38,759 bases of DNA, taken from Candidatus Aerophobetes bacterium Ae_b3b. GTDB taxonomy: Bacteria > Aerophobota > Aerophobia > Aerophobales > AE-B3A. The stretch spans positions 1 through 38,759 of the forward strand of contig NJBP01000014.1 of NCBI GenBank assembly GCA_005223085.1, in the 5' to 3' direction. Each line of letters starts with the position of its first letter. Position 1 is the first letter of the stretch. Shown here piece after piece: positions 5,227-26,155 of the stretch. The notes under the pieces were generated by a model. The model searched no databases. It saw only the letters and a list, made by a program, of their open reading frames with translations, and was not told the DNA's origin. The translations under genes were made by a program, and so were the position numbers.

Positions 5227-6120
5227 ATGCAGGAAGAGAGATTCCCTGGATATAGGTGGTTGCCTTATTTACTGGTAGCTCCTTCTATCGCAGTAATTGT
5301 AATCTTCCTGGTTGTGCCTTTCGTTCAAAGCGTACGTGGGTCTTTCTTTATCTCAACGCCGTTTGGCACGAAAACCATCTACGTTGGACTCCGCAATTAT
5401 ATTCGTCTATTCTCCTCGCCAGATTATCAAAACAGTATCTTGACCACGCTTGCGTTCTCCTCTTTCGTCATTATTATTGGACTTTCCGTTTCACTGGGCA
5501 TCGCCCAACTGCTCAATCAGAAGATTAGAGGGCTGGGCTTCTATCAAGTCGCTCTTATCTGGACCTATGCCCTCTCCCCGGCGATCGCTGGAGTGATCTG
5601 GGCCTCAATGTTCGCTCCTGCCACTGGCCTCGTCCCCTACATCGTCTCCAAGTTGTCCGGCGGGTATGTGCTGAACTGGATGACCAACGGCCGGATAGCA
5701 CTGTTGGTGGTGGTCGCTGCCGCCACGTGGAAGATGTTGGGCTACAATATTGTCTTCTTATTAGCTGGGCTGCAAAACGTACCGAAAGCACTTATGGAAG
5801 CCGCCCGGGTGGATGGGGCAGGGCCCTGGAAAGCCTTCTGGCGTATCACGTTCCCTATGCTTTCTCCCACCACTACCTTTTTGTTATTTGTTAATATGCT
5901 CTATGCTTTCTTCCAGGTTTTTGGGCTTATAGATATTATGACACGGGGCGGGCCAGGGAATGCCACGGAGATCCTTGTGTACAAACTGTATCGTGATGGG
6001 TTCATCCATCTCAACACCGGATCCGCATCAGCCCAATCCTTCGTAATATTCTTTGTAATTTCTATTGGGGCAATCATTCAATTGCGAGTAGCTACGCGAA
6101 AAGCCATTTATGCTCGGTGA
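5227..6120 (+). CDS. ugpA: UgpA-like ABC transporter permease
   Basis: This 297-residue inner-membrane protein has about six hydrophobic helices, the first at LPYLLVAPSIAVIVIFLVVP. The EAA loop that docks the ATPase reads EAARVDGAGPWKAFWRITFP. It is the first permease of a ugp-type importer and follows ugpB after about 80 bp. ATG 5227 follows an AGGGAGAAG site; an in-frame upstream start at 5164 would add a non-hydrophobic, Pro/Cys-rich lead and is less likely. No ATP-binding subunit follows, so a shared MsiK/UgpC-type ATPase encoded elsewhere would be required. The ligand is inferred from UgpB. Confidence 0.87.
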   Translation: MQEERFPGYRWLPYLLVAPSIAVIVIFLVVPFVQSVRGSFFISTPFGTKTIYVGLRNYIRLFSSPDYQNSILTTLAFSSFVIIIGLSVSLGIAQLLNQKIRGLGFYQVALIWTYALSPAIAGVIWASMFAPATGLVPYIVSKLSGGYVLNWMTNGRIALLVVVAAATWKMLGYNIVFLLAGLQNVPKALMEAARVDGAGPWKAFWRITFPMLSPTTTFLLFVNMLYAFFQVFGLIDIMTRGGPGNATEILVYKLYRDGFIHLNTGSASAQSFVIFFVISIGAIIQLRVATRKAIYAR

Positions 6121-6124
6121 GGTG

Positions 6125-6958
6125 ATGCCTTTGTCTGGGAAAAACCGATACAAAATTCTTATTCATGGTCTGCTTATCCTACTGGTTCTAGTCCTTGCTT
6201 TCCCTGTGGTTTATGCTCTAATTACAAGTACCTTAAGTTTCCAGGAGTCCTACACATATCCGCCAAGACTTATACCGGGCAATCAATTCCTGGCCAATGC
6301 CGCCGTAGCCTGGCATCGAATCAAGTTGGGTCGGCTCTTGTTCAACACCTGGTTAATCTCAATAGTGGTGGCGTTAGCAAAAATCATTCTGTCACTGCTA
6401 GCTGCCTTTGCCTACACCCATTTCAAGTTTCGGGGCCGGGGGCTGCTATTCCCCATGTGCATGATCACTCAAATGCTGCCTCTCCCGGTCCGCATCGTTC
6501 CAACTTTTCAGTTGATGGCGAGCTTTGACTGGATAAATTCTTACTATGCCCTCACAATACCATTCTTTGCCAGCACAACAGGCATACTTCTTTTCCGACA
6601 GTTCTTCATGACCGTGCCTAGAGATCTTTCAGATGCAGCCCGGGTTGATGGGGCGGGCCCCATGCGTTATTTCCTGCAAATTCTAGTCCCTGTCTCAAAA
6701 ACCAACATCGCAGCTCTGTTTGTCATAGAATTTATTTTTATGTGGAGTCAGTACTTATGGCCGTTGATTGTGATAACCACCGGTGAAATGCGGGTTGTGC
6801 AAATCGGTGTCAAGATGTTGTTAGCCAGCGAACAAATAGCGCCTGAGTGGAATGTTATCATGGCTGGCACGGTAATGGCTATGCTCCCACCCCTCATGAT
6901 CCTCATCCTTTTCAGGAAAAGTTTTACTCAGGGAATCGCCATGCAATCACAAAAGTAG
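6125..6958 (+). CDS. ugpE: UgpE-like ABC transporter permease
   Basis: This is a 277-residue, six-helix inner-membrane permease. It closely follows E. coli UgpE: FPVVYALITSTLSFQ after the first helix, MLPLPVRIVPTFQLM, FFASTTGILLFRQFFMTVP, the EAA loop DAARVDGAGPMRYFLQILVP, and the late WSQYLWPLIVITT. It pairs with UgpA to form the channel. ATG 6125 starts five bases after the ugpA stop with GGTGAGG close by; ATG 6110, overlapping ugpA, is an alternative start. No UgpC ATPase is encoded next to it. Instead, a new gene begins at 6992 with a good Shine-Dalgarno site but is cut off at the right repeat. Confidence 0.87.
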   Translation: MPLSGKNRYKILIHGLLILLVLVLAFPVVYALITSTLSFQESYTYPPRLIPGNQFLANAAVAWHRIKLGRLLFNTWLISIVVALAKIILSLLAAFAYTHFKFRGRGLLFPMCMITQMLPLPVRIVPTFQLMASFDWINSYYALTIPFFASTTGILLFRQFFMTVPRDLSDAARVDGAGPMRYFLQILVPVSKTNIAALFVIEFIFMWSQYLWPLIVITTGEMRVVQIGVKMLLASEQIAPEWNVIMAGTVMAMLPPLMILILFRKSFTQGIAMQSQK

Positions 6959-6991
6959 GAGCGGTTTGTAACTGAAAGGAGGCTACGTTCT

Positions 6992-7120
6992 ATGAAGCTG
7001 ATGCAAGCCACGAATTTAGTTTCTAGAGCTGCCGCCCCACGGCTTCCAAGATTTTTCGTCCTCCTCGAATCAGGAGCTTTAGCCATATCTACCAGCAGAA
7101 AAGAGCTGAGGAGAATCTGA
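6992..7120 (+). pseudogene. 5' end of an unidentified gene, truncated at the right repeat
   Basis: An AAAGGAGG site eight bases upstream introduces ATG 6992. It opens a 42-codon frame, MKLMQATNLVSRAAAPRLPR and onward, ending ELRRI in the same codons that end DUF47 (RRI-stop). The last part lies in the 22-bp repeat, so the natural gene was probably cut here. It follows ugpE by 33 bp and looks like the next gene of the transferred operon. No family is recognisable from so short a stretch. Confidence 0.45.
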
Positions 7121-7129
7121 TGTGGTTTC
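7108..7129 (+). repeat. 22-bp direct repeat, right copy
   Basis: This is identical to 3255-3276. It contains GAGGAG, which serves as the Shine-Dalgarno site, and the ATG start of the PiT permease at 7120. It marks the right border of the ugp block. Confidence 0.9.
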
Positions 7130-8058
7130 TTTTATCCGGGATCTACCTGGGCTGGGCCCTGGGGGCAAATGATGCGGCTAATGTCTTTGGTACAGGAGTA
7201 ACCAGCGGATTGGTAAGCTATAAATTGGCGGTCATTTTAACCGCCATTTTTGTCATTTTAGGAGCGGTGATGGAGGGCACTAAACCCATGGATACAGTGG
7301 GCTACTTTACTAGCCTTACTCTTTTTACCGCTCTCTTAGTTACCTTATCTGCTGCCATTACGGTAACCCTGATGACCCGGCTTAAGCTACCAGTTTCCAC
7401 CTCTCAAGCTATACTGGGGGCTATTGTGGGAATTGCCATTGTGGGAGAAGGTTGGAGAGGGTTACCTATGGATAAATTAACCAAAGTGGTTCTTTGCTGG
7501 ATTTTTACTCCTCTGGGAGCAGCGGTCATCTCTTTTTTACTCTTCATGGGTTTGGGTTATTTGGTCAACAGGATAAGAGGATTGGCTGTTTTTACTCATC
7601 TTATGAGAATAGGAATTTTGGTCACAGGTTGCTTCAGTGCTTATGCCTTGGGTAGTAACAACGTGGCCAATACTACGGGAGCTTTTGTGGGGGCAGGCCT
7701 CATTACCCCAATTGAGGGAGCCTTAATTGGAAGTATTAGCATCGGGGTGGGAGCTCTCACCTACAGTCGAGGAGTAATGATATCTGTGGGAAGACGAATC
7801 TCTCTTCTGGATCCCTTTTCCGCCTTGGTGGTAGTTTTGGCCGGGGCTATCACGGTTTACCTTTATACTCAGATAGGAGTTCCTGTTTCAACCTCCCAGG
7901 CAGTGGTAGGAGCAGTGGCAGCAATTGGATTAGCTAAAGGAATCAGGACAATTAATAAGAAAATGCTTTTCTTTATCCTCCTGGGTTGGATATCCACCCC
8001 TATTCTGGCAGCCAGCCTCTCTATCCTGATGTTACTTCTATTCTCCGGAATAATTTAA
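7120..8058 (+). CDS. pit: PiT family inorganic phosphate permease
   Basis: This is a 312-residue membrane protein with about ten hydrophobic segments and the duplicated PiT signature: GANDAANVFGTG at residues 15-26 and GSNNVANTTGAFVGAG in the second half. Each is followed by a PVSTSQAxxGA motif (LPVSTSQAILGA and VPVSTSQAVVGA). PiT proteins take up metal-phosphate with H+ or Na+; some relatives carry sulfate. The start is fixed by GAGGAG in the 22-bp repeat. Its usual partner, DUF47, is 3.85 kb upstream, so co-transcription from the original promoter has probably been disturbed. Confidence 0.92.
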   Translation: MWFLLSGIYLGWALGANDAANVFGTGVTSGLVSYKLAVILTAIFVILGAVMEGTKPMDTVGYFTSLTLFTALLVTLSAAITVTLMTRLKLPVSTSQAILGAIVGIAIVGEGWRGLPMDKLTKVVLCWIFTPLGAAVISFLLFMGLGYLVNRIRGLAVFTHLMRIGILVTGCFSAYALGSNNVANTTGAFVGAGLITPIEGALIGSISIGVGALTYSRGVMISVGRRISLLDPFSALVVVLAGAITVYLYTQIGVPVSTSQAVVGAVAAIGLAKGIRTINKKMLFFILLGWISTPILAASLSILMLLLFSGII

Positions 8059-15296: not shown

Positions 15297-16100
15297 ATGA
15301 ATTTAATCTTGCTTTCCACATTAACCATGGGAGGACTGGCCGCTGTCTTTGCTCTTTTTTTGTCTATAGCTCACAAGAAATTAAAAGTGGAAGAGGACCC
15401 CCGGACGGAGCAAGTTCTAGGGTACCTGCCCGGTGTTAACTGCGGAGCATGTGGACGTGCTAGTTGCCGGAGTCTCGCAGAAGCAATCGTTAAGGGAGAG
15501 GCTTTAGCTAGCGCCTGTGTAGCGGGCGGAAATGATGTGGGTCAGAAAATAGCTGCTTTAATGGGAGTAGAGTCAGGGTCTACTCAGAGTAAGGTGGCTG
15601 TGCTTCACTGCGGAGCTTTACATTCGGAGAGGGGGAAAAAAGCAGAATACGAAGGAGTAAAAAGCTGCCAGGCAGCCGATCTACTGATGGGAGGAAATCT
15701 AGCCTGTGGGTATGGTTGCCTGGGGTATGGTGATTGCCAGGCTTCCTGCCCATTTGATGCTATTAGCATGCGTGGGGGTCTACCCCGGATCGACGCTGCT
15801 AAATGTACTGGATGTGGAAATTGTGTCAAAGCGTGTCCCAGAAATCTAATCACTCTCGAGGTTTTAGATGGAGAGCCACGTTACCGGGTTGTCTGTTCTT
15901 CTTTGGATAAGGGGAAAAAAGCCAGGAAGGTTTGTAAAAAAGCTTGTATAGCTTGCGGTTTATGCGTCAAGGTATGCCCCTTTGATGCTTGTGAGCTACA
16001 GGATAATCTGGCCGTGATCGATGAGAGAAATTGTCAATCATGTGGGGTATGTGCCCAAAGATGTCCCACCGGAGCAATATCCCTGAATTCACTTTGTTAA
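15297..16100 (+). CDS. rnfB: RnfB iron-sulfur subunit of the Rnf complex
   Basis: This 267-residue protein has an N-terminal membrane anchor (LSTLTMGGLAAVFALFLSIA). A four-Cys domain follows (NCGACGRASC and a later C). After it come several ferredoxin motifs: CGYGCLGYGDCQASCP, CTGCGNCVKACP, CIACGLCVKVCP and CQSCGVCAQRCP. That is the RnfB layout, which takes electrons from reduced ferredoxin at the membrane. The end is normal (ISLNSLC). It is last in the pyrG-rnfA-rnfB group. The cooC promoter and gene lie 160 bp downstream, so Rnf and the acetyl-CoA pathway are physically linked, as expected for an acetogen-like energy scheme. Confidence 0.93.
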   Translation: MNLILLSTLTMGGLAAVFALFLSIAHKKLKVEEDPRTEQVLGYLPGVNCGACGRASCRSLAEAIVKGEALASACVAGGNDVGQKIAALMGVESGSTQSKVAVLHCGALHSERGKKAEYEGVKSCQAADLLMGGNLACGYGCLGYGDCQASCPFDAISMRGGLPRIDAAKCTGCGNCVKACPRNLITLEVLDGEPRYRVVCSSLDKGKKARKVCKKACIACGLCVKVCPFDACELQDNLAVIDERNCQSCGVCAQRCPTGAISLNSLC

Positions 16101-16204
16101 TTTATGAGGAGCCAGGGGTTGAAGTTTTTTTTATTGGGCCTTGTGAAAATAATTACAAGCTTGCAGTTTCGGGCTCTATAAGGATTTTCAAGCTTGTTCA
16201 GTAC

Positions 16205-16232
16205 TTGACTAACTCAGAAGGGATGATAAAAT
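16205..16232 (+). promoter_or_regulatory. Promoter for the cooC-cooS-acs operon
   Basis: TTGACT at 16205-16210, a 16-bp spacer and TAAAAT at 16227-16232 lie 29 bp before the cooC ATG. The 160-bp rnfB-cooC gap holding it shows no clear terminator, so read-through from rnf is also possible. Confidence 0.6.
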
Positions 16233-16261
16233 ACAGGGACTTTGCCTTGAGGAAAATGGGG

Positions 16262-17044
16262 ATGAAAATTGCTGTAACCGGTAAGGGAGGAGTAGGGAAG
16301 ACTACCCTGGCCGCTGGTTTGGCTAGTGAGTTTTCTCGGGAGGGAAAGAAGGTCTTTGCTATAGATGCCGACCCCGACGCCAACCTCGCTTTAACCCTGG
16401 GATTCCCAAACCCCTCCAGAATAAAGCCCTTAATTGAGCTAAAGAAACTAATAGAAGAAAGAACTCATGCTAAGGTTGGCAGCCTAAATCCTTATTTTAA
16501 ACTAAATCCCAGGGTTGATGATATTCCTGAAAAGTACTTTGTTCATCACCAGGGGATAAACTTGATGGTGATGGGCACCGTAAGAGGAGGGGGATTGGGC
16601 TGTACCTGTCCGGAAAACGCTTTTTTAAAAGCCTTATTAAGCCATTTGATACTCGAACGTAAGGAAGTGGTTATCATGGATATGGAAGCAGGAATAGAGC
16701 ACCTGGGAAGAGGAACAGCCAGAGGAGTGGATCAATTAATCGTAGTGGTAGAGCCGGGAAGGCGAAGCATCCAGACAGCTTGTCGGATTGAGGATCTGGC
16801 TAAAGATATAGGAATAGAGAATATCGTGGTAGTAGGAAATAAAATCAGAACCAATTCTGATCGAAAGTTTCTCATTACCAATATGCCCGACTTTCGGTTT
16901 TTAGGCTTCATTCCCTATGAGGAAAAAATCGTGGAGGCGGACCTGGCCAATGTTTCACCCTTTGATTTGAACAAGGATATTTTACCCCAGATAAAAAAGA
17001 TTGTTGAGAAAATGGAGGAAAAGGTTGAATATGGACGAGACTAA
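16262..17044 (+). CDS. cooC: CooC/AcsF-type nickel-insertion ATPase for CO dehydrogenase or acetyl-CoA synthase
   Basis: This 260-residue MinD/ParA-like ATPase has the deviant Walker A GKGGVGKTT from residue 8 and IDADPDANLALTLG directly after it. The metal-binding CxC is in GLGCTCPEN, and MDMEAGIEHLGRGTA is the switch region. CooC dimers bind nickel through the CxC and help load the active-site clusters. Codons in front of ATG 16262 are open but overlap rnfB and have no similarity; TTGAGGA at the right distance supports 16262. The gene overlaps cooS by 14 bases. It could act on either CooS or AcsB; no second homologue is visible here. Confidence 0.92.
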   Translation: MKIAVTGKGGVGKTTLAAGLASEFSREGKKVFAIDADPDANLALTLGFPNPSRIKPLIELKKLIEERTHAKVGSLNPYFKLNPRVDDIPEKYFVHHQGINLMVMGTVRGGGLGCTCPENAFLKALLSHLILERKEVVIMDMEAGIEHLGRGTARGVDQLIVVVEPGRRSIQTACRIEDLAKDIGIENIVVVGNKIRTNSDRKFLITNMPDFRFLGFIPYEEKIVEADLANVSPFDLNKDILPQIKKIVEKMEEKVEYGRD

Positions 17045-18929
17045 AGAGCGCTCAGTAGATCCAGCTACCCAAAAATTACTAAAGAGAGCAAAAGAACAAA
17101 ATATTGTGACTGTTTGGGATAGATTCGAGGTAATGCGCCCTGGATGTAAGTTTGCTCAACAGGGTATCTGCTGTCGAATCTGCAATATGGGCCCTTGCCG
17201 TATTACCAAGAAGGCCGAACAAGGCGTCTGCGGTGCCAATGCTGATACTATTGTGGCTAGAAACCTGGCCAGAATGATTGTTGCGGGAGCTGCCGCTCAT
17301 TCTGATCACGGCCGCGATGTCGCCCATGCCTTACTTTTAGCCGCTCAGGGGAAGGCAAGTGCCTATAAAATTAAAGATGAGGAAAAACTGGTCGCTTTAG
17401 CTGCCGAATACGGGATAAAGGTGGAAGGAAGAAAAAAAGAAGAGATAGCAGAGGATCTGGCAAACAAGGCCTTAAGTGAATTCGGCCAGCAGCACGGCGA
17501 GCTTAGAATGGCCCTGAGAGCTCCCAAGAAACGGGTCCAGCTATGGAAAAAACTGGGAATTCTACCCCGAGGTGTGGATAGAGAGATAGTAGAGATGATG
17601 CATCGCACTCACATGGGGGTGGGGAATGACTATAGAAACATCCTTACCCATGGCCTGAGGGTTGCTCTCAGCGATGGCTGGGGAGGGTCTATGATAGCTA
17701 CCGAACTTTCCGATGTTCTCTTTGGGACTCCGGAGCCTCTTACGGCCAGATCAAATCTGGGAGTTCTGGCCGAAGATAAAGTCAATGTAGTGGTACATGG
17801 GCATGAGCCTACTCTTTCTGAGGTAGTGGTAGAGGCAAGTCATGACCCTGAACTTCTCGACTTAATTAAACAGAACGGAGCTAAGGGTATCAATATTGCA
17901 GGAATCTGTTGTACCTCTAACGAGATTCTTATGCGACATGGCATCCCCGTAGCAGGAAACTTTCTCCAGCAGGAACTGGCCCTCGTTACTGGAGCAGTGG
18001 AGGTAATGATGGTGGACGTACAGTGTCTGATGCCGGCCCTAGCCAGCGTGGCTAGCTGTTTTCATACCAAACTCGTTACTACCTCGCCTAAATGTAAGTT
18101 TCCCGGAGTGACTCATGTGGAATTTCAAGAAGAAAGAGCCTATGAGACGGCCAAAGAGATCCTTAAGCTGGCAGTCCAGAACTATAAAAATAGGAATAAA
18201 AACGGAGTGGAGATACCTAAGGAAAACCAGGGTCTGGTAGCTGGATTTACCGCAGAAAGTGTATTCAATTTCCTGGGAGGGAGATATAGAGCCACTTATC
18301 GGCCTCTCAACGATGCTATCATTCAGGGAAGACTAAGGGGAGCGGCTGGTGTGGTGGGCTGCAATAATCCCAACACAAGACATAACTATTCTCATATAGA
18401 GATGGCTAAGGAACTGATTAAAAATGATGTACTGGTGGTGGTAACGGGCTGCTCGGCTATTGCCGATGCTGAGGCGGGATTACTTCAGCCAGAGACAGCT
18501 TTCAAATATGCGGGTAAGGGGCTTCAGGAGATCTGTGAGGCGGTAGGAATTCCTCCCATTTTGCATGTTGGATCCTGTGTAGATAATAGTCGCATCTTAA
18601 TTACTCTAACCAATGTAGTGAATGAAGGGGGACTGGGGGAGGATATCAGCGACCTCCCAGTTGCCGGTGCAGCTCCGGAGTGGATGAGCGAGAAAGCTAT
18701 TTCCATCGGCTTTTATTTTGTAGCCTCCGGAGTCTTTACCGTTTTTGGGACCCCTCATCCTATTCTGGGATCAAAAAACGTCACTGACCTTGTATGTGGT
18801 GGTCTGGAGGAGATGGTGGGAGGAAAGTTTGCTTTTGAGTCTGACCCTATAAAAGCTGCTCACCTGATGATTGAGCATATGAATAAAAAACGCAAGGCTT
18901 TAAAGCTAAAACCGATGATGTATGAATAA
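17031..18929 (+). CDS. cooS: Anaerobic carbon-monoxide dehydrogenase catalytic subunit
   Basis: The 632-residue Ni-Fe CODH reversibly reduces CO2 to CO. Cys39 and Cys47 fit the D-cluster bridging the dimer. Cys48, Cys51, Cys56 and Cys67 fit the B-cluster (GICCRICNMGPCRI). C-cluster ligands are recognisable in VHGHEPTLSE, IAGICCTSNEIL, GVVGCNNPN, VVTGCSAIADA and LHVGSCVDN. The length is that of the bacterial CooS/AcsA type. ATG 17031 is used because the earlier frame lies inside cooC without similarity. Its position between cooC and acsB shows it works with acetyl-CoA synthase, which draws CO through the internal tunnel of the complex. Confidence 0.96.
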   Translation: MDETKERSVDPATQKLLKRAKEQNIVTVWDRFEVMRPGCKFAQQGICCRICNMGPCRITKKAEQGVCGANADTIVARNLARMIVAGAAAHSDHGRDVAHALLLAAQGKASAYKIKDEEKLVALAAEYGIKVEGRKKEEIAEDLANKALSEFGQQHGELRMALRAPKKRVQLWKKLGILPRGVDREIVEMMHRTHMGVGNDYRNILTHGLRVALSDGWGGSMIATELSDVLFGTPEPLTARSNLGVLAEDKVNVVVHGHEPTLSEVVVEASHDPELLDLIKQNGAKGINIAGICCTSNEILMRHGIPVAGNFLQQELALVTGAVEVMMVDVQCLMPALASVASCFHTKLVTTSPKCKFPGVTHVEFQEERAYETAKEILKLAVQNYKNRNKNGVEIPKENQGLVAGFTAESVFNFLGGRYRATYRPLNDAIIQGRLRGAAGVVGCNNPNTRHNYSHIEMAKELIKNDVLVVVTGCSAIADAEAGLLQPETAFKYAGKGLQEICEAVGIPPILHVGSCVDNSRILITLTNVVNEGGLGEDISDLPVAGAAPEWMSEKAISIGFYFVASGVFTVFGTPHPILGSKNVTDLVCGGLEEMVGGKFAFESDPIKAAHLMIEHMNKKRKALKLKPMMYE

Positions 18930-19063
18930 AGATAGATTATTCAGAAAAAAAGAGGTGGGTAAGGGGGTACTTTTTTAAGTATCTGCTTCTCGTGAGGAAA
19001 AAACCTAAAAGAACATAAGGGTTGTTGAACTAGAAAAAGATTTTCTAACCAGGAGGAAGGGAT

Positions 19064-22000
19064 ATGTCAAAGATAATTGCTTCGGCGGCCATTAGAGGAG
19101 CACATAAGTACGTCAAAGAGGCCGAAGAAAAATTAAATAAACTTATCGAGGAAAAAGGACCGGATGAGAAGGTGGCCTTTCCCAACACCGCTTATTACCT
19201 TCCCCTTATTTATGCTCTTTTGGGGATGGAGGTTAAGACTCTTCAGGACTTAGGAAGGGCTCTCCAGGAAGCAAGGCGACTCCTGCCTCCAGAACCAACT
19301 AAGAAATTGTGGCTGCCCTATCTGGGAAACGCCTTAGATGCAGGAATAGCTACTCTTATTGCTGAAGAAGCTATTGAGGCTTTGAAATACTTAACCGGGG
19401 ATGAACCGAAGGGAATATGGCTAGGATTTACCGATGATGCTATCCTTCGAACTCAGGGAATCAAACTGGTAGACGGAAGAATGCCTGGATTTGCTGCCTG
19501 TGCAGGGGCTCTTCCTACTAATGATGAAGCGGTTCAACTGGCTCGTGCCCTGCAGGAGAAAAGTATTCTCGTCTTTATGGCCTCGAGTTCCAATGGCAGG
19601 AGTATGGCTGAACAGTTAGCTGAGGAGGGGATCGAGATGAACTGGGATACTTTCCTTGTCCCCTATGGAAAAGATACCAGTGCGGCGGTCCATGCTCTAA
19701 ATTTTGCTGCTCGAGCAGCCATGACCTTTGGAGGACTTAAACCGGGGAATTTAGCCCAGGCAAGAGAAATTCTCCTTTATAATAAGGCAAGGGTTCATGC
19801 CTTTGTTCTAGCACTGGGTGTCGATCCCGGAGTAGATGGGGATCAGGTGATAACCGATGAAAAATATGCCACCGCCGCCGGAGCTATTAACTTTGGTTTT
19901 CCGGTCATCTCAGACGTAGATCTTCCCCAGATTCTGCCAACGGGAATTTGTACTTATGAACACGTAGTCTCCAACATTCCCCGGGAGACAATAGTGAGTA
20001 AGTCTATTGAGATTAGGGGTTTAGAGATAAAGGTGACTGAAATTCCCATTCCTGTTCCTTATGGAGCAGGCTTTGAAGGAGAAAGAGTTAGAAAAGAACA
20101 GATGCAGGTTGAATTTGGAGGAAAACGCAGCACTGCATTTGAGCTCTTAAGAGGAAAGCCCATGGGGGAGGTAGAGGACGGTAAGATCGAGATCATTGGC
20201 CCGGATGTGGATAAAGTCGAGGTGGGTGCAGCTATGCCCCTGGGGATATTGGTCGAGGTTGCCGGCCGAGAATTTCAGGAGGATTTCGAGAGCGTGCTGG
20301 AGCGCCGCATCCATGAGTTTATTTCCTGCGCTAATGGGATTTTCCATATGGGACAGAGAGCCATTACCTGGCTTCGCATCAGTAAAGAGGCTTTCCAGAA
20401 AGGATTTCGGCTAAGACACTTGGGAGAGATTCTCGTGGCCAAGATCCACGATGAGTACTCGAAAATTGTGGACAAAGTGCAGTTAAGGATTATCACTGAT
20501 GAGGCTCAGCTAGCAGAACCACTGGAAGAGGCGAGAGCGGTCTATCGAGAGCGTGATGAGAGAATAGGAAAAATGACGGATGAGGATGTAGACACCGTTT
20601 ATAGCTGTATTTTATGTCAAAGTTATGCGCCAAATCATGTATGCATTGTAACACCTCAAAGATTAGGTCTCTGTGGTGCTTATACCTGGCTTGACTGCAA
20701 GGCTTCCTTTCAGCTAAATCCCCATGGACCAAATGAGCCGGTAAAGAAGGGCAAAACCCTGGATTCTGTGAAAGGTCAATGGGAAGGAGTGAATAAGTAT
20801 CTCAAGGCGAAATCCCATGGAAATCTGGAAAGATTCAATGCCTATTCTATGATAGAGGACCCAATGACGAGCTGCGTTGTAGGAGAAACCGAGCTTATAA
20901 TTGATGGAAAGCCGGTTAAAATAGAGGATTTTGTCAACTCTCACCGGGGAAGTGAAAATTATACTAAATCTTCAGCTCTAACTCTTAAAGAGGGAAAAGC
21001 TGAGCAAGAACCTATAGTAGCTATGCAGCGGTTCCCAGCTCCTGAGACCTTAATTAAACTTCGTACAAAATCAGGAGTTGAATTAATCCTTACCCCTAAT
21101 CATGAGTTAGTTGTAGATAGATGGGAGAGGTTAGGATGGGTCCGAGCTGATGAAATTGGGATTGGTGACCGCATAATTTCATTATCCCAGCTTGGTTTAC
21201 CCTCAAATCTTCCTGAAATGGTGAATATTTTACCTGATGATTTCCGAGCGGCCGATCAGGATTTAATTGAGAAGATCAAAACTCAATTAATCTCTAAATA
21301 TGGTTCTCTACGTAAGGCCTTAAATCATATTCCCATAAAACTGCCCTCAGGTGTGAAATCTATAAAAATGGGAGATTTGAAAACTATAGCCTCGTATTTA
21401 GGAGTGGACTGGGAGGTGATTAAGACTCAAATAAAGACTGTAAATACAGCCTCCTCCTTTGTTAAATTACCTGAAAGACTATCTGAGGATATCTTTTATC
21501 TTATGGGTTTAATAGCTTCCGATGGCTCAATTACCAGAAGGGGTAAGTATGAGTATCATATTGATTTTATCAATACCGATGAAAGGTTAGGTGAGGTATT
21601 TACCTCCATCTATTTGCATAGTTTCCCCGATCGCAACGTAAATGTAATAAAAAGAAAAGAAACGGTATCCAAGATAAGAGGTAGAATCATAAAACCAACT
21701 AAACCCTGTTTCCACTACTACCTAAATAACCCTGTTTTGGGATATCTTAGTGAGTACTTTGGAATTTATGCAGGTTCCAATGGTAAGAGGAATCTGGGAA
21801 AGATGCTCGATTTACCTAAGGCCCATATCGCGGCTTTCCTGGCTGGACTCTTCGATGGTGATGGGAGTGTTAGATTACGTAGATATCAGGATAAATGGGA
21901 GGTCGGTGAAGGATACCTGTGTATTTTCGATAAAGATGGTGCAAGACATCTGCAACTTCTCCTGAGACGCCTGGGGATAGTGGGGAACCTGCGGAAAGAT

Positions 22001-22990
22001 AGACATGTATGGAAAGTTGAGCTTCACGGAGGCAACTTATCCCGATTTGCTTATACCATTCCTTCAAAACATCCTCAAAAAGAGGAGCTTCTCACCAGAG
22101 TGCGTCAATTAGCCAATGAGGATAATGCCAGGTTAGACAAAACTCAGAGAGAAGTTCTGCCTTACTATGTGGGGAAAGCTATTGCTGCTCTTCCAGCTAG
22201 TAAAAAAGTTCTTTCTCCCAGTACCCTATTTTACTATAAGACGGGACGATCTCGACCGATTATCTCTAATGCCAACAAAGTTCTTAAAGCTAATCTGGGA
22301 GTTAATTTACTTGATCCTCCCTCAGAAGAGAAAAAGCACTCCTCTCTTCTTGAAACCCATAATTCTCCAGAAAAACTCCTCTCACTGGGATTACAAGAGA
22401 GAGAATTGCAAGGAGAGGAAAGGCACCGATCTATTATTGAAGCGTCTCTCAAAACTGATTACTTCCTGGACATCATTACTAAAGTGGAAAATATCAAAAA
22501 TAATGGTAAATATAGTTATGTTTACAATTTGACCCTTAAGGATGTGCATGCCTACTTTGTCAATGGGGGTCCTCTGATAAAGAACTGTGGTTGCTTTGAG
22601 TGCATTACGGCTGTTCTACCCGAGACCAATGGCGTAATGATTGTCAATCGTGAGTTTACCGAAATGACCCCGGTGGGCATGGCTTTCAGCACCATGGCTG
22701 GAACTGTGGGTGGTGGGATACAGACCCCCGGATTTATTGGAATGGGGAAGGTGTACATCACCAGTGAGAAATTCATCTCTGCTGACGGAGGAATTAGAAG
22801 GGTTGTCTGGATGCCGCAAGGACTTAAGGAAGAGATAAAAGAAAGGCTCGAGAAGCGCTTGGCTGAAATTGGAGAACCTGAATTGATGGATAAAATCGCT
22901 ACTGAAAAGGATGCCGTGACCTCTGAGGATCTGGTAAAGTTCTTGCAAGAAAAGCAGCATCCAGCTCTCTCCATGCCACCTATGATGTAA
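19064..22990 (+). CDS. acsB: Acetyl-CoA synthase (CODH/ACS complex) with in-frame intein
   Basis: The precursor is 1308 residues. Removing the intein (604-1174) leaves 737, close to the usual bacterial AcsB of about 730. The enzyme joins CO, a methyl group from the corrinoid protein and CoA to give acetyl-CoA at the A-cluster. Cys515, Cys518, Cys527 and Cys537 have the same spacing (3, 9, 10) as the [4Fe-4S] ligands Cys506, 509, 518 and 528 of Moorella ACS. After splicing, CGC would be residues 604-606, again 67 after Cys537, matching Moorella Cys595-Gly-Cys597, the distal-nickel site. The bacterial N-terminal CODH-contact domain is present. AGGAGG precedes ATG 19064. Confidence 0.96.
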   Translation: MSKIIASAAIRGAHKYVKEAEEKLNKLIEEKGPDEKVAFPNTAYYLPLIYALLGMEVKTLQDLGRALQEARRLLPPEPTKKLWLPYLGNALDAGIATLIAEEAIEALKYLTGDEPKGIWLGFTDDAILRTQGIKLVDGRMPGFAACAGALPTNDEAVQLARALQEKSILVFMASSSNGRSMAEQLAEEGIEMNWDTFLVPYGKDTSAAVHALNFAARAAMTFGGLKPGNLAQAREILLYNKARVHAFVLALGVDPGVDGDQVITDEKYATAAGAINFGFPVISDVDLPQILPTGICTYEHVVSNIPRETIVSKSIEIRGLEIKVTEIPIPVPYGAGFEGERVRKEQMQVEFGGKRSTAFELLRGKPMGEVEDGKIEIIGPDVDKVEVGAAMPLGILVEVAGREFQEDFESVLERRIHEFISCANGIFHMGQRAITWLRISKEAFQKGFRLRHLGEILVAKIHDEYSKIVDKVQLRIITDEAQLAEPLEEARAVYRERDERIGKMTDEDVDTVYSCILCQSYAPNHVCIVTPQRLGLCGAYTWLDCKASFQLNPHGPNEPVKKGKTLDSVKGQWEGVNKYLKAKSHGNLERFNAYSMIEDPMTSCVVGETELIIDGKPVKIEDFVNSHRGSENYTKSSALTLKEGKAEQEPIVAMQRFPAPETLIKLRTKSGVELILTPNHELVVDRWERLGWVRADEIGIGDRIISLSQLGLPSNLPEMVNILPDDFRAADQDLIEKIKTQLISKYGSLRKALNHIPIKLPSGVKSIKMGDLKTIASYLGVDWEVIKTQIKTVNTASSFVKLPERLSEDIFYLMGLIASDGSITRRGKYEYHIDFINTDERLGEVFTSIYLHSFPDRNVNVIKRKETVSKIRGRIIKPTKPCFHYYLNNPVLGYLSEYFGIYAGSNGKRNLGKMLDLPKAHIAAFLAGLFDGDGSVRLRRYQDKWEVGEGYLCIFDKDGARHLQLLLRRLGIVGNLRKDRHVWKVELHGGNLSRFAYTIPSKHPQKEELLTRVRQLANEDNARLDKTQREVLPYYVGKAIAALPASKKVLSPSTLFYYKTGRSRPIISNANKVLKANLGVNLLDPPSEEKKHSSLLETHNSPEKLLSLGLQERELQGEERHRSIIEASLKTDYFLDIITKVENIKNNGKYSYVYNLTLKDVHAYFVNGGPLIKNCGCFECITAVLPETNGVMIVNREFTEMTPVGMAFSTMAGTVGGGIQTPGFIGMGKVYITSEKFISADGGIRRVVWMPQGLKEEIKERLEKRLAEIGEPELMDKIATEKDAVTSEDLVKFLQEKQHPALSMPPMM
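20873..22585 (+). mobile_element. Intein with LAGLIDADG homing endonuclease inside AcsB
   Basis: The 571-residue element starts with Cys1 (CVVGETELIIDGKPVKIEDF, block A) and ends LIKN before the extein Cys of CGCFEC. TPNH at intein residues 74-77 is the block B Thr-His motif, and VYNLTLKDVHAYFVNGGP near the end is block F. Two LAGLIDADG helices, LMGLIASDG (from 210) and LAGLFDGDG (from 323), each with its acidic residue, indicate a probably intact endonuclease. The penultimate residue is Lys rather than the usual His, and the terminal Asn and Cys+1 are present. It is a class 1 intein expected to excise itself by protein splicing, and its +1 nucleophile is a catalytic A-cluster ligand. Confidence 0.95.
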
Positions 22991-23006
22991 TTAAGGAGGA
23001 AGGGAA

Positions 23007-24353
23007 ATGGCTTTAACCGGATTAGGAATCTATAAGCATCTACCAAAAACTAACTGTGGGGATTGTAATTTTCCTACCTGTATGGCTTTTGCTATGCAAT
23101 TAGCGGCCAAGAAAGTTTCTTTAGATCAGTGTCCCCACGTATCTGATGAGGGAAAGGCGGCTCTGGCAGAAGCCTCAGCTCCTCCTATGAAGCTGGTCAA
23201 AATTGGCAAGAACAGTCATGAACTACTTATAGGCCAGGAAACTGTTCTTTTCCGACATCAAGAAAAGTTTCACCATCCTACTGGAATTGCTGTCAAAGTT
23301 AAAGATGATCTGGCTGAGGAGGAGTTGACTAATCGGATAGAAGCAATTAACAACTTACATTTTGTTCGGGTTGGAGAAGAAATTGGAGTAGATCTGATAG
23401 CAGTTGAACACAGCTCCACCTCACCTCAAGGATATGCCCGAGTGGTCAAAAAGGTAAAAGAGATGAGTGATCTTCCTCTTGTTCTTCTTAGTCCCGATCC
23501 CAAGATAGCTGAGGCTGGCCTTGAGGTTAGTGCCGAAAGAAGACCTCTTATTTATGCTGCCACCGGGAAAAACTGGCAGCAAATGGCATCATTAGCTAAA
23601 AAGCATAGCTCTCCTCTTGCCTTAAAGGGAGAAAGCCTGGAGGAGCTAGCTGATCTTACCCAGCAAATCAAAAAACTGGGGGTGGACGATCTTGTCCTCA
23701 GTGTTGATGGCCCTCGAGTGGCCGACACTCTCCAGGATCTCACTCGAATCAGGCGGTTAACTTTAAGCAAGACATTTCGTCCCCTGGGATATCCAACTAT
23801 TGCTTTTGTTACGGGAAAAGATCCTTTCCAGCAGGTGGGTCAGGCGGCTACCTATATCTGTAAGTATGGCAGCATCGTAGTAATGGAAGGGACAGAGCCC
23901 TGGAAGATTCTTCCCTTATTAACTATAAGGCAGAACATATATACTGATCCCCAGGTTCCTAATGCAGTAGAAGCCAAACTTTACGAGATCGGGGAGGTAA
24001 CTTCTCACTCTCCGGTACTGGTTACCACCAATTTTTCTCTTACCTACTTTACGGTAGAAGGAGAAGTAGAAAACAGTAAGATACCGACTTATATTTCCGT
24101 GGTGGAGACAGAAGGTTTGGGCGTACTCAATGCCTATGCCGGAGACAAGTGGTCAGCAGAGAAGATTGGCAAGACCCTGGAGGAACAAAAAATTAAGGAG
24201 AGAATCAACCATAACTCAGTAATTATACCCGGGCTGGTGGCTGTCTTTAGAGCTGAGTTAGAAGAGGATTTTGGCTGGAAGGTTTTAGTTGGTCCTGAGG
24301 AAGCAGCAAGAATTCCTAGCTTTCTCAAAAACGAATGGAAGGTAACTTCTTAA
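23007..24353 (+). CDS. acsC: Corrinoid iron-sulfur protein large subunit
   Basis: The 448-residue protein has an N-terminal [4Fe-4S] domain with Cys17, Cys20, Cys25 and Cys42 (Cx2Cx4Cx16C), exactly the CFeSP pattern. A TIM-barrel region follows, and then a C-terminal cobalamin-binding region with TTNFSLTYFTVEGEVE and NHNSVIIPGLVAVFRAELEE. With AcsD it carries the methylcobamide between AcsE and AcsB; the cluster re-reduces cob(II)amide. Full length. AAGGAGGAAGG precedes ATG 23007, 16 bp after acsB. Confidence 0.95.
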   Translation: MALTGLGIYKHLPKTNCGDCNFPTCMAFAMQLAAKKVSLDQCPHVSDEGKAALAEASAPPMKLVKIGKNSHELLIGQETVLFRHQEKFHHPTGIAVKVKDDLAEEELTNRIEAINNLHFVRVGEEIGVDLIAVEHSSTSPQGYARVVKKVKEMSDLPLVLLSPDPKIAEAGLEVSAERRPLIYAATGKNWQQMASLAKKHSSPLALKGESLEELADLTQQIKKLGVDDLVLSVDGPRVADTLQDLTRIRRLTLSKTFRPLGYPTIAFVTGKDPFQQVGQAATYICKYGSIVVMEGTEPWKILPLLTIRQNIYTDPQVPNAVEAKLYEIGEVTSHSPVLVTTNFSLTYFTVEGEVENSKIPTYISVVETEGLGVLNAYAGDKWSAEKIGKTLEEQKIKERINHNSVIIPGLVAVFRAELEEDFGWKVLVGPEEAARIPSFLKNEWKVTS

Positions 24354-24366
24354 AGGAGGATTTAAG

Positions 24367-25329
24367 ATGTTGATCCCTGAAGTGAGGCAAAAGTGGGCTA
24401 ATCCCATTAACACTATTACTATAGGGGCTACCCCGGAGGAAGGAGGAACAAGAACTCGTACCGTAACTGTGGGAGGTTCTACTACCTTACCTTTCCTCCA
24501 TTTTGAAGGAAAGATTCCTCATCGTCCAGCCCTCGCCATGGAAGTTCAGGATATTACTCCTAAAGATTGGCCAGAGATTTTAGGTGAGCATTTTTCGGAT
24601 GTATGGGATGACCCGGGGAGATGGGCAAAAAAGTGTGTAGACCAATTGGGAGCTGACCTGGTTTGTCTCAGGCTGGCCGGATGCGATCCAGACGGCGAGA
24701 ACAAGAGCCCAGATGAGGCGGCTGTCGCAGTAAAATCGGTTTTAGAGGCGGTAGGAGTTCCTCTCATTGTATGGGGCTGTGGGGACAATGACAAAGATAA
24801 CGAAGTTCTTCCCCAATGTAGTGAGATTTCAGCGGGGGAGAGATCTCTTTTCGGCTCGATTACTGAAGATAACTACAAAACACTGGTGGCCCTTTGTAAA
24901 GCTGATGGTCATAAACTAATTGCCGAGTCTCCAGTGGATATCAATATCGCAAAACAGGTAAATGTTCTGGCTACCGACTTGGGACTGGATCCAAAGGATA
25001 TTGTTATTTATCCTACCTCCGGTGCCCTGGGATATGGAATGGAATATGTCTATTCCATTATGGAAAGAGGCAGAATAGCTGGACTCGATGGAGATACCAT
25101 GTGGGCCATGCCCATTCTCTGCGATATTGGAAAAGAGGTCTGGAAGGTTAAAGAAGCTGTAAGTGATGAAATTGCAGAATGGGGAGATCAATCTCAAAGA
25201 GGCCCTCTCTGGGAGGCAACTACGGCCTATGTTTATCTTCTGGCAGGGGCCGATATACTGATAATGCGCCATCCTAAGGCGGTGAGTGAAGTTAAAAAAT
25301 ATCTGGAAAAACTGATAGAATCAAAATGA
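24367..25329 (+). CDS. acsD: Corrinoid iron-sulfur protein small subunit
   Basis: The 320-residue TIM-barrel subunit begins VRQKWANPINTITIGATPEE, followed by TRTVTVGGSTTLPFLHFEGK, both characteristic of AcsD/CdhD-type proteins. Later segments DLVCLRLAGCDPDGENKSPD, VPLIVWGCGDNDKDNEVLP and YPTSGALGYGMEYVYSIMER also fit. It pairs with AcsC to enclose the corrinoid in the methyl-transfer complex. AAAGGAGG lies before ATG 24367, 13 bp after acsC, so the subunits are co-translated. Length and ends are normal. Confidence 0.95.
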   Translation: MLIPEVRQKWANPINTITIGATPEEGGTRTRTVTVGGSTTLPFLHFEGKIPHRPALAMEVQDITPKDWPEILGEHFSDVWDDPGRWAKKCVDQLGADLVCLRLAGCDPDGENKSPDEAAVAVKSVLEAVGVPLIVWGCGDNDKDNEVLPQCSEISAGERSLFGSITEDNYKTLVALCKADGHKLIAESPVDINIAKQVNVLATDLGLDPKDIVIYPTSGALGYGMEYVYSIMERGRIAGLDGDTMWAMPILCDIGKEVWKVKEAVSDEIAEWGDQSQRGPLWEATTAYVYLLAGADILIMRHPKAVSEVKKYLEKLIESK

Positions 25330-25348
25330 AGAAAGGAGGAAAATCGGG

Positions 25349-26155
25349 ATGATCTTCATTGGTGAGCGAATCAACGGCGGATTCAAAGATATAGTCAAGG
25401 CTATAAAAGAAAAGGATAAGGATATTATTAAAAAATGGGCCATTCGGCAAACCCGGGCAGGAGCAGATTACATTGACGTCAACATAGGAGCAGTTTCCAA
25501 TAAAGTGAAGGACTATATCTGGATGATAGAAACTGTCCAGGAGACAGTGCCCACTCCCATTTCTATAGATACTAACAAATTGGAGTTCGTTAAGGAAGCG
25601 CTAAAACTGTGTCAGAAGACTCCTCTCATCAATTCTACCACGGCCCACGATGAAAAATTAGACCAACTTGTTCCCTTGGCGGCCGAGCACGAAGTCGGCT
25701 TGATTGGAGTTTGTATGGATGAGAAGGGCAGCCCTCAGGACGTAAATAGAAGGGTAGAACTAGCGGCAAAGATCTTTACCCATGCCGTAGAGAAAGGCTT
25801 ACCACCGGAAAGACTCTTCTTGGATCCAGTAATTATGCCTCTGAAGTTTCTTCAACCTCAGGCCGCTAATGTTCTCGAGGCTATTCGTCAGTTTAAACTC
25901 CTTTCTGACCCACCGCCCCATATAGGAGTGGGACTTAGTAATATTTCCTCTCAGACTATAGAATCAAGATTAATCAATAGAACTTTCCTGGTAATGGCTA
26001 TAGAAGCAGGATTAGATGCAGCTATCTGTGATGTCACCGACACCGAACTAGTCAATGCTGCCATTACTGCAGAATTAATAAAGGGTGAGCATATCTATTC
26101 CGATTCATTTATAAAGGCCTATCAGGCAGCCAAAAAACCAGGGGTTGGTGACTAG
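25349..26155 (+). CDS. acsE: Methyltetrahydrofolate:corrinoid iron-sulfur protein methyltransferase
   Basis: The 268-residue pterin-binding TIM barrel starts MIFIGERINGGFKDIV. It has ADYIDVNIGAVS, SIDTNKLEFVKEAL and the characteristic LINSTTAHDEKL, followed by DPVIMPLKFLQP and GLSNISSQ; these line the methyl-THF site. It moves the methyl group from CH3-THF to cob(I)amide of AcsCD. It closes the operon and follows acsD by 19 bp with AAAGGAGG. No metF, folD or fhs genes for making methyl-THF lie in the window. The length is close to Moorella AcsE. Confidence 0.95.
   Translation: MIFIGERINGGFKDIVKAIKEKDKDIIKKWAIRQTRAGADYIDVNIGAVSNKVKDYIWMIETVQETVPTPISIDTNKLEFVKEALKLCQKTPLINSTTAHDEKLDQLVPLAAEHEVGLIGVCMDEKGSPQDVNRRVELAAKIFTHAVEKGLPPERLFLDPVIMPLKFLQPQAANVLEAIRQFKLLSDPPPHIGVGLSNISSQTIESRLINRTFLVMAIEAGLDAAICDVTDTELVNAAITAELIKGEHIYSDSFIKAYQAAKKPGVGD

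Follow-up and report, generated by a model that had tools for sequence, protein, structure and literature searches.

Inteins that interrupt their hosts at active-site residues are well known. Those of Prp8 (sites a-g), DnaB (i1 and i2), SufB and RadA (at the P-loop) are inserted at functional residues, and at more than one site per protein (PMC6805012, PMC6195587). The class 1 LAGLIDADG inteins with solved structures, among them intein homing endonuclease II (2cw7), PI-PfuI (1dq3) and TliVMA (7qss), share a HINT domain and a two-motif LAGLIDADG endonuclease, together with Cys1, a terminal Asn and Cys+1. Here we describe an intein of this build, AcsB-b, in acsB, the gene for acetyl-CoA synthase (ACS), of Candidatus Aerophobetes bacterium Ae_b3b; it lies on contig NJBP01000014.1, a stretch of 38,759 nucleotides that we refer to as a whole as the window. 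ACS stands at the heart of the Wood-Ljungdahl pathway, which is among the oldest carbon-fixation routes. AcsB-b differs from the three solved inteins in four respects: (i) sequence identity to them is <20%; (ii) the host is ACS; (iii) Lys takes the penultimate position, where His is usual; and (iv) extra helical regions flank the endonuclease core on both sides. Unlike in Prp8, DnaB, SufB or RadA, both +1 nucleophiles used by the ACS inteins supply thiolate ligands to one and the same catalytic nickel. As far as our searches show, these are apparently the first inteins reported in ACS, at two catalytic-nickel cysteines and in six phyla; also new, to our knowledge, are the host, the pair of nickel-ligand sites, the distribution over six phyla and the conservation of a penultimate Lys. 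The open-access literature (subscription papers and intein databases being outside the scope) returned no report of an intein in acetyl-CoA synthase, AcsB/CdhC, or a Wood-Ljungdahl or carbon monoxide dehydrogenase (CODH) context, in line with the preliminary description of this DNA, which knew of none at this site; a Desulfonema paper that came up as a candidate (PMC6390638) concerns GyrB and DnaE inteins. AcsB-b is very probably a splicing-competent class 1 homing intein that moves horizontally, and on whose splicing ACS function depends.

We examined the 571-residue insert for the features of a class 1 intein. The open reading frame (ORF), Pfam, NCBIfam and alignment agree with the preliminary description on the class and on the exact boundaries (Table 1). 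The insert matched Intein_splicing (PF14890, 46.2 bits against a cut-off of 35.8), LAGLIDADG_3 (PF14528, 49.4 bits against 22.5) and the NCBIfam model TIGR01445 intein_Nterm (38.4 bits against 24.5), and no intein-containing ACS model was among the NCBIfam matches for the precursor. Cys1, Thr74 and His77 of the block-B T-x-x-H motif, and the terminal Asn, which in the window is Asn571 followed by Cys+1, are invariant across the 21 aligned inteins of this site. The LAGLIDADG pair, YLMGLIASDGS and AFLAGLFDGDGS, has the catalytic Asp in both motifs. An AlphaFold model of the intein, built with 20 homologues, reached a predicted local distance difference test score (pLDDT) of 86 and a predicted template-modelling score (pTM) of 0.86, and comprises a HINT domain plus a LAGLIDADG domain. 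Its top solved matches in Foldseek were endonuclease-bearing inteins (2cw7, E 1.9e-19; TliVMA 7qss, E 1.5e-18; also 1dq3), while a PDB sequence search with the intein gave weak endonuclease and intein matches only.

Removal of the insert restores an uninterrupted, conserved ACS, with the junction DPMTS-CGCFEC gap-free in a full-length alignment. Along its entire length the spliced protein can be aligned with the ACS crystal or other solved structures 7zkj, 1ru3 and 1oao (E about 1e-206 to 1e-203), and the acsB flanks match CODH_A_N, CdhC and ACS_CODH_B_C, all above cut-offs. Cysteines at 515, 518, 527, 537, 604 and 606 fall on the six A-cluster cysteines with the correct spacing, and the distance of 67 residues between Cys537 and Cys604 given in the preliminary description is exact. 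Cys518 corresponds to Carboxydothermus hydrogenoformans Cys512 and Moorella Cys509, and Cys604 and Cys606 to C. hydrogenoformans Cys598 and Cys600 and Moorella Cys595 and Cys597 (C. hydrogenoformans numbers are those of 1ru3 via its +4 offset). In Moorella, Cys509 bridges the Fe4S4 cluster to the proximal nickel, Ni(p), and Cys595 and Cys597 both bind Ni(p) and the distal nickel, Ni(d) (PMC10299331, PMC8910529). Hence the +1 nucleophile is itself an A-cluster ligand, as had been proposed. The further claim that the unspliced protein cannot assemble the nickel site was too strong; what holds is that the A-cluster as a whole probably cannot be assembled. An isolated 15-kDa C-terminal ACS fragment starting beside Cys595 can hold square-planar nickel in the distal site, and nickel proteins have also been made from variants that carry extra residues ahead of Cys595 (PMC8910529), so partial nickel binding by the precursor is possible. 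An AlphaFold model of the C-terminal precursor before splicing (803 aa) has a good intein and is uninformative on A-cluster disruption because extein confidence is low (pLDDT mostly 26-47 over residues 1-100).

The same site, which we call site b, is occupied in many other genomes. We scanned the GTDB genome collection (about 85,000 prokaryote genomes) with a DNA pattern for the N|CGCFEC junction, which uninterrupted ACS genes do not match because the residue before CGCFEC in the sampled intact genes is Ser, Ala or Gly. Among 69 matches, 30 were ACS genes with an intein C-terminus; the other 39 or so did not lie in ACS genes and were set aside as chance matches. With the window, site b is thus occupied in at least 31 genomes, a lower bound because variants like CGCFEV escape the pattern. 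By record names the hosts belong to six phyla: Anaerolineae/Caldilineaceae/Chloroflexi, Omnitrophota, Bipolaricaulota/Acetothermia, Actinomycetota, Poribacteria and Aerophobetes, with Ae_b3a, CSMAG_1292 and CSMAG_1269 as carriers in the window's own family. The 30 further inteins, from assemblies of many projects, are 40-73% identical to that of the window. We found no second ACS locus in the window's genome (assembly 88.6% complete), as the preliminary description required, and no uninterrupted ACS C-terminal domain in any of the 30 other site-b genomes, while relatives have intact ACS genes. Site b is present in 4 of the 9 ACS-bearing genomes of the window's phylum (site a, described below, in two), in 2 of 45 Chloroflexota genomes (one being the chosen centre) and in 4 of 127 from Omnitrophota (one again the chosen centre; site a in 2); its occurrence is infrequent and patchy, also inside a single family. 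A protein search of viral contigs for relatives of the intein found none, and three viral matches to the junction pattern were due to chance.

Two further ACS genes were noted during this survey. In the window's family, a close relative (locus L025, G006:C32) has an archaeal-type CdhC with a 414-aa frame and 43% identity over the C-terminal domain, standing where other family members have bacterial AcsB. A large ORF of 1183 aa (L049, G060:C242) was considered as an intein carrier and rejected, as it is ACS fused to the next subunit; the fusion partner reads as a corrinoid-protein subunit of the CODH/ACS complex.

A second insertion point, site a, came to light in the window's order, where two genomes (G010 and G013) have an intein of 534-535 residues between Cys-Ile-Leu and Cys518. 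The equivalent of Moorella Cys509, the bridge from Fe4S4 to Ni(p), is here the +1 nucleophile, so that both insertion points put a Ni(p) ligand in the role of splicing nucleophile. Site a is also occupied in Omnitrophota (G782), and five genomes have both sites filled: three of Anaerolineae (L052/G193, L100/G214 and L115/G221), one of Omnitrophota (L084/G208) and one of Poribacteria (L091/G212). Site-a inteins end in Lys-Asn or Arg-Asn. When a maximum-likelihood tree was built from both families and four other inteins, sites a and b each formed one clade (100% bootstrap) and the two together a joint clade (97/93); mean identity between the sites is 27%, against 20-21% to the other inteins. Given the great length of the outgroup branches, the two families are likely sisters rather than proven to be so. 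In Prp8, by contrast, the inteins at different sites have been read as independent acquisitions.

We next consider selection and mobility. The ratio of nonsynonymous to synonymous substitution rates (dN/dS) was 0.05-0.17 for the extein (computable pairs), 0.10-0.25 for the splicing domain and 0.11-0.32 for the endonuclease (full-length pairs), indicating that both parts of the intein are under purifying selection. An endonuclease-free mini-intein is the classical end stage of a homing intein, at which splicing alone is maintained. Six site-b copies are such mini-inteins (169-222 aa), their endonuclease gone and their splicing blocks intact, so splicing has been kept where homing was lost. In two further copies the catalytic Asp is replaced by Gly (L160, Poribacteria, site a: ASGGC and DGGGH; L161, Anaerolineae, site b: ASGGS); these endonucleases look dead, with splicing blocks kept. 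As a measure of mobility we compared, between intein and extein, the share of differing codons among codons with unchanged amino acid (Fisher test). The intein was the less diverged in four pairs (p 2e-6 to 2e-11): window and Ae_b3a (0.35 vs 0.51, p 1e-6), Ae_b3a and CSMAG_1292 (0.25 vs 0.60, p 2e-11), window and CSMAG_1292 (0.38 vs 0.63), and the Chloroflexi pair CG2_30_64_16 and HGW-Chloroflexi-1 (0.17 vs 0.38, p 5e-8). In these pairs the common ancestor of the inteins appears to be younger than that of the surrounding genes, and between Poribacteria and the window the inteins are more alike (62% identity) than the exteins (57%). Low synonymous divergence in several pairs and the patchy distribution both point to horizontal movement.

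Several observations weigh against a fully active, mobile intein. Other pairs have no intein-extein difference in synonymous-codon divergence, and there is an overall correlation between the distances of inteins and those of exteins (Mantel r 0.79), so much of the descent is vertical; taken together, the comparisons suggest an element both inherited and horizontally transferred, as a homing intein should be. Nearly all intein-bearing genomes are metagenome assemblies. In most class 1 inteins the penultimate residue is His, whereas in 31 of 34 inteins from both sites it is Lys (Ala in two site-b inteins of Omnitrophota, and Arg in 1), and in Chloroflexota inteins the block-F His is replaced by Asn too. 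The penultimate position is variable elsewhere, for example Ser or Ala in cyanobacterial DnaE (PMC5874633), and a penultimate His is a common, non-defining trait of the class. Splicing rate and efficiency are nonetheless not to be assumed, because of the penultimate Lys and the block-F Asn in Chloroflexota.

These departures could mean an inactive or crippled intein, in a dead or dying acsB of an organism that no longer makes ACS, and the endonucleases that have lost a catalytic Asp (L161 at site b, L160 at site a) fit such decay. We consider this very unlikely, given the low extein dN/dS, reading frames that have stayed long and open in six phyla, a complete CODH/ACS operon, invariant splicing residues and mini-inteins that keep their splicing blocks. 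The metagenomic origin of nearly all the genomes might suggest an assembly or binning artefact, to which we give almost no credence: homologous inteins at the same junction in 30 further assemblies have in practice already refuted it. A different reading is a conditional switch, in which splicing is held back until a redox, Ni/Fe-S or other cue and ACS is activated post-translationally, with the ligand Cys+1 as sensor and metal or oxidant on Cys+1 or Cys1 stalling the reaction. Both ACS sites do use cysteines that bind Ni(p), the unusual Lys may slow Asn cyclisation, and precedents exist in the Prp8 intein, which Zn and Cu stall at catalytic residues (PMC6805012), and the class 3 DnaB intein, which oxidation stalls (PMC6195587). 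Cys1, however, is the only conserved cysteine in either site family, and a built-in disulfide switch of the kind described for the mycobacterial DnaB intein (PMC6195587) is therefore unlikely to be common to these inteins. Metals or oxidants may act on Cys1 or Cys+1, as they do in Prp8 (PMC6805012), and such effects would be generic to inteins. Nothing in the data shows conditionality, and alleles that are patchy within one family, low synonymous divergence, endonuclease conservation in some copies and its loss in others are the marks of a homing element; a switch is accordingly improbable, and the control by redox, metal or temperature once suggested for this intein found no support. It is also unlikely that a dedicated lineage specialised on the Ni(p) cysteines of ACS, moved between two ligand cysteines, swapped the penultimate His for Lys and now gates A-cluster assembly in some hosts, with the shared cysteine responding to metal or oxidant.

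The case for a splicing, homing intein is built from sequence: its motifs, the exact restoration of the host, conservation, transfer, and endonuclease loss with splicing blocks retained. The predicted reaction would begin with an N-S acyl shift at Cys1, followed by transthioesterification onto Cys+1, the future nickel ligand, and by cyclisation of Asn571 and an S-N shift, which would leave ...PMTS-CGC... with the A-cluster site intact. Spread would proceed by LAGLIDADG cleavage of intein-free acsB at an extremely conserved stretch and repair of the break from an intein-bearing copy. The active-site position is expected because the endonuclease would target conserved DNA, a Cys is available as +1 residue, and only precise loss is tolerated; the best explanation is that placement follows from targeting and not from a regulatory role. 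The complete A-cluster would presumably not be built before splicing, and the organism could not make complete ACS otherwise; in carriers, acetyl-CoA synthesis then has to await splicing of the protein. Such acsB genes may be split or overlooked by automated annotation, which can give a wrong picture of Wood-Ljungdahl capacity in Anaerolineae, Omnitrophota and Aerophobetes. With two related inteins at different codons of a single gene, ACS provides a natural example of a homing endonuclease switching sites, and the Lys conserved in both families allows a test of Asn cyclisation without His.

Table 1. Features of the acsB locus in the window, and intein or ACS loci elsewhere
Feature	Position	Strand	Remarks
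AcsB-b intein, class 1	20873..22585	+	571 aa, Cys1...Asn571, penultimate Lys570
Intein block A	20873..20899	+	nucleophile Cys1, in 21/21 aligned site-b inteins
Intein block B GVELILTPNHELVV	21074..21115	+	His77 invariant
First LAGLIDADG motif YLMGLIASDGS	21497..21529	+	catalytic Asp present
Second LAGLIDADG motif AFLAGLFDGDGSV	21833..21871	+	catalytic Asp present; PF14528
Intein blocks F and G YSYVYNLTLKDVHAYF / VNGGPLIKN	22511..22585	+	
acsB precursor ORF	19064..22990	+	1308 aa unspliced, 737 aa spliced; NF040764, 1006 bits
N-extein, residues 1-603	19064..20872	+	C-terminal ...IEDPMTS; aligned to 7zkj/1ru3/1oao
A-cluster Fe4S4 cysteine motif	20606..20674	+	Cys515, 518, 527, 537
Cys518 codon	20615-20617	+	Fe4S4-Ni(p) bridge; +1 residue of second intein site in relatives
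C-extein	22586..22990	+	first residue Cys+1 (= Moorella Cys595) of Cys-Gly-Cys; binds Ni(d), bridges to Ni(p)
CODH/ACS operon	15297..26155	+	complete around acsB
Operon upstream of acsB: ferredoxin-like protein, CooC/AcsF-like ATPase, CODH	CODH 17001-18929	+	
Operon after acsB: AcsC-like, AcsD-like, pterin-binding methyltransferase	23007-24353, 24367-25329, 25349-26155	+	
Intein L196	C80 ~10356		host 2-oxoacid:ferredoxin oxidoreductase beta subunit, by frame reading
Intein L197	C45 ~5949-7415		host A-type ATPase subunit A, at P-loop, by frame reading
Intein L198	C57 ~23455-24966		host RtcB, by frame reading
TGA-bearing ACS beta L210	G102:C157:14577-15869	minus	
TGA-bearing ACS beta L211	G901:C49:7744-8985	minus	

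The other inteins of the window's genome (L196-L198) end in His-Asn or Ser-Asn, unlike the Lys-Asn of AcsB-b, and their hosts differ.

A separate observation concerns the Ni(d) Cys-Gly-Cys motif in archaeal-type ACS beta subunits. Two genes (L210 and L211), from both sampled genomes of one bacterial phylum and only 38% identical to each other, have two in-frame TGA codons at the cysteines of this motif (TGA GGG TGA TTC GAG). A 2026 review of the prokaryotic selenoproteome names only a gamma-subunit-type protein (PMC13188914). The genome of L210 (G102) has a match to selenocysteine tRNA (tRNA-Sec) of 75.3 bits (gathering score 47), and both genes are candidates for a Sec-Gly-Sec nickel site.

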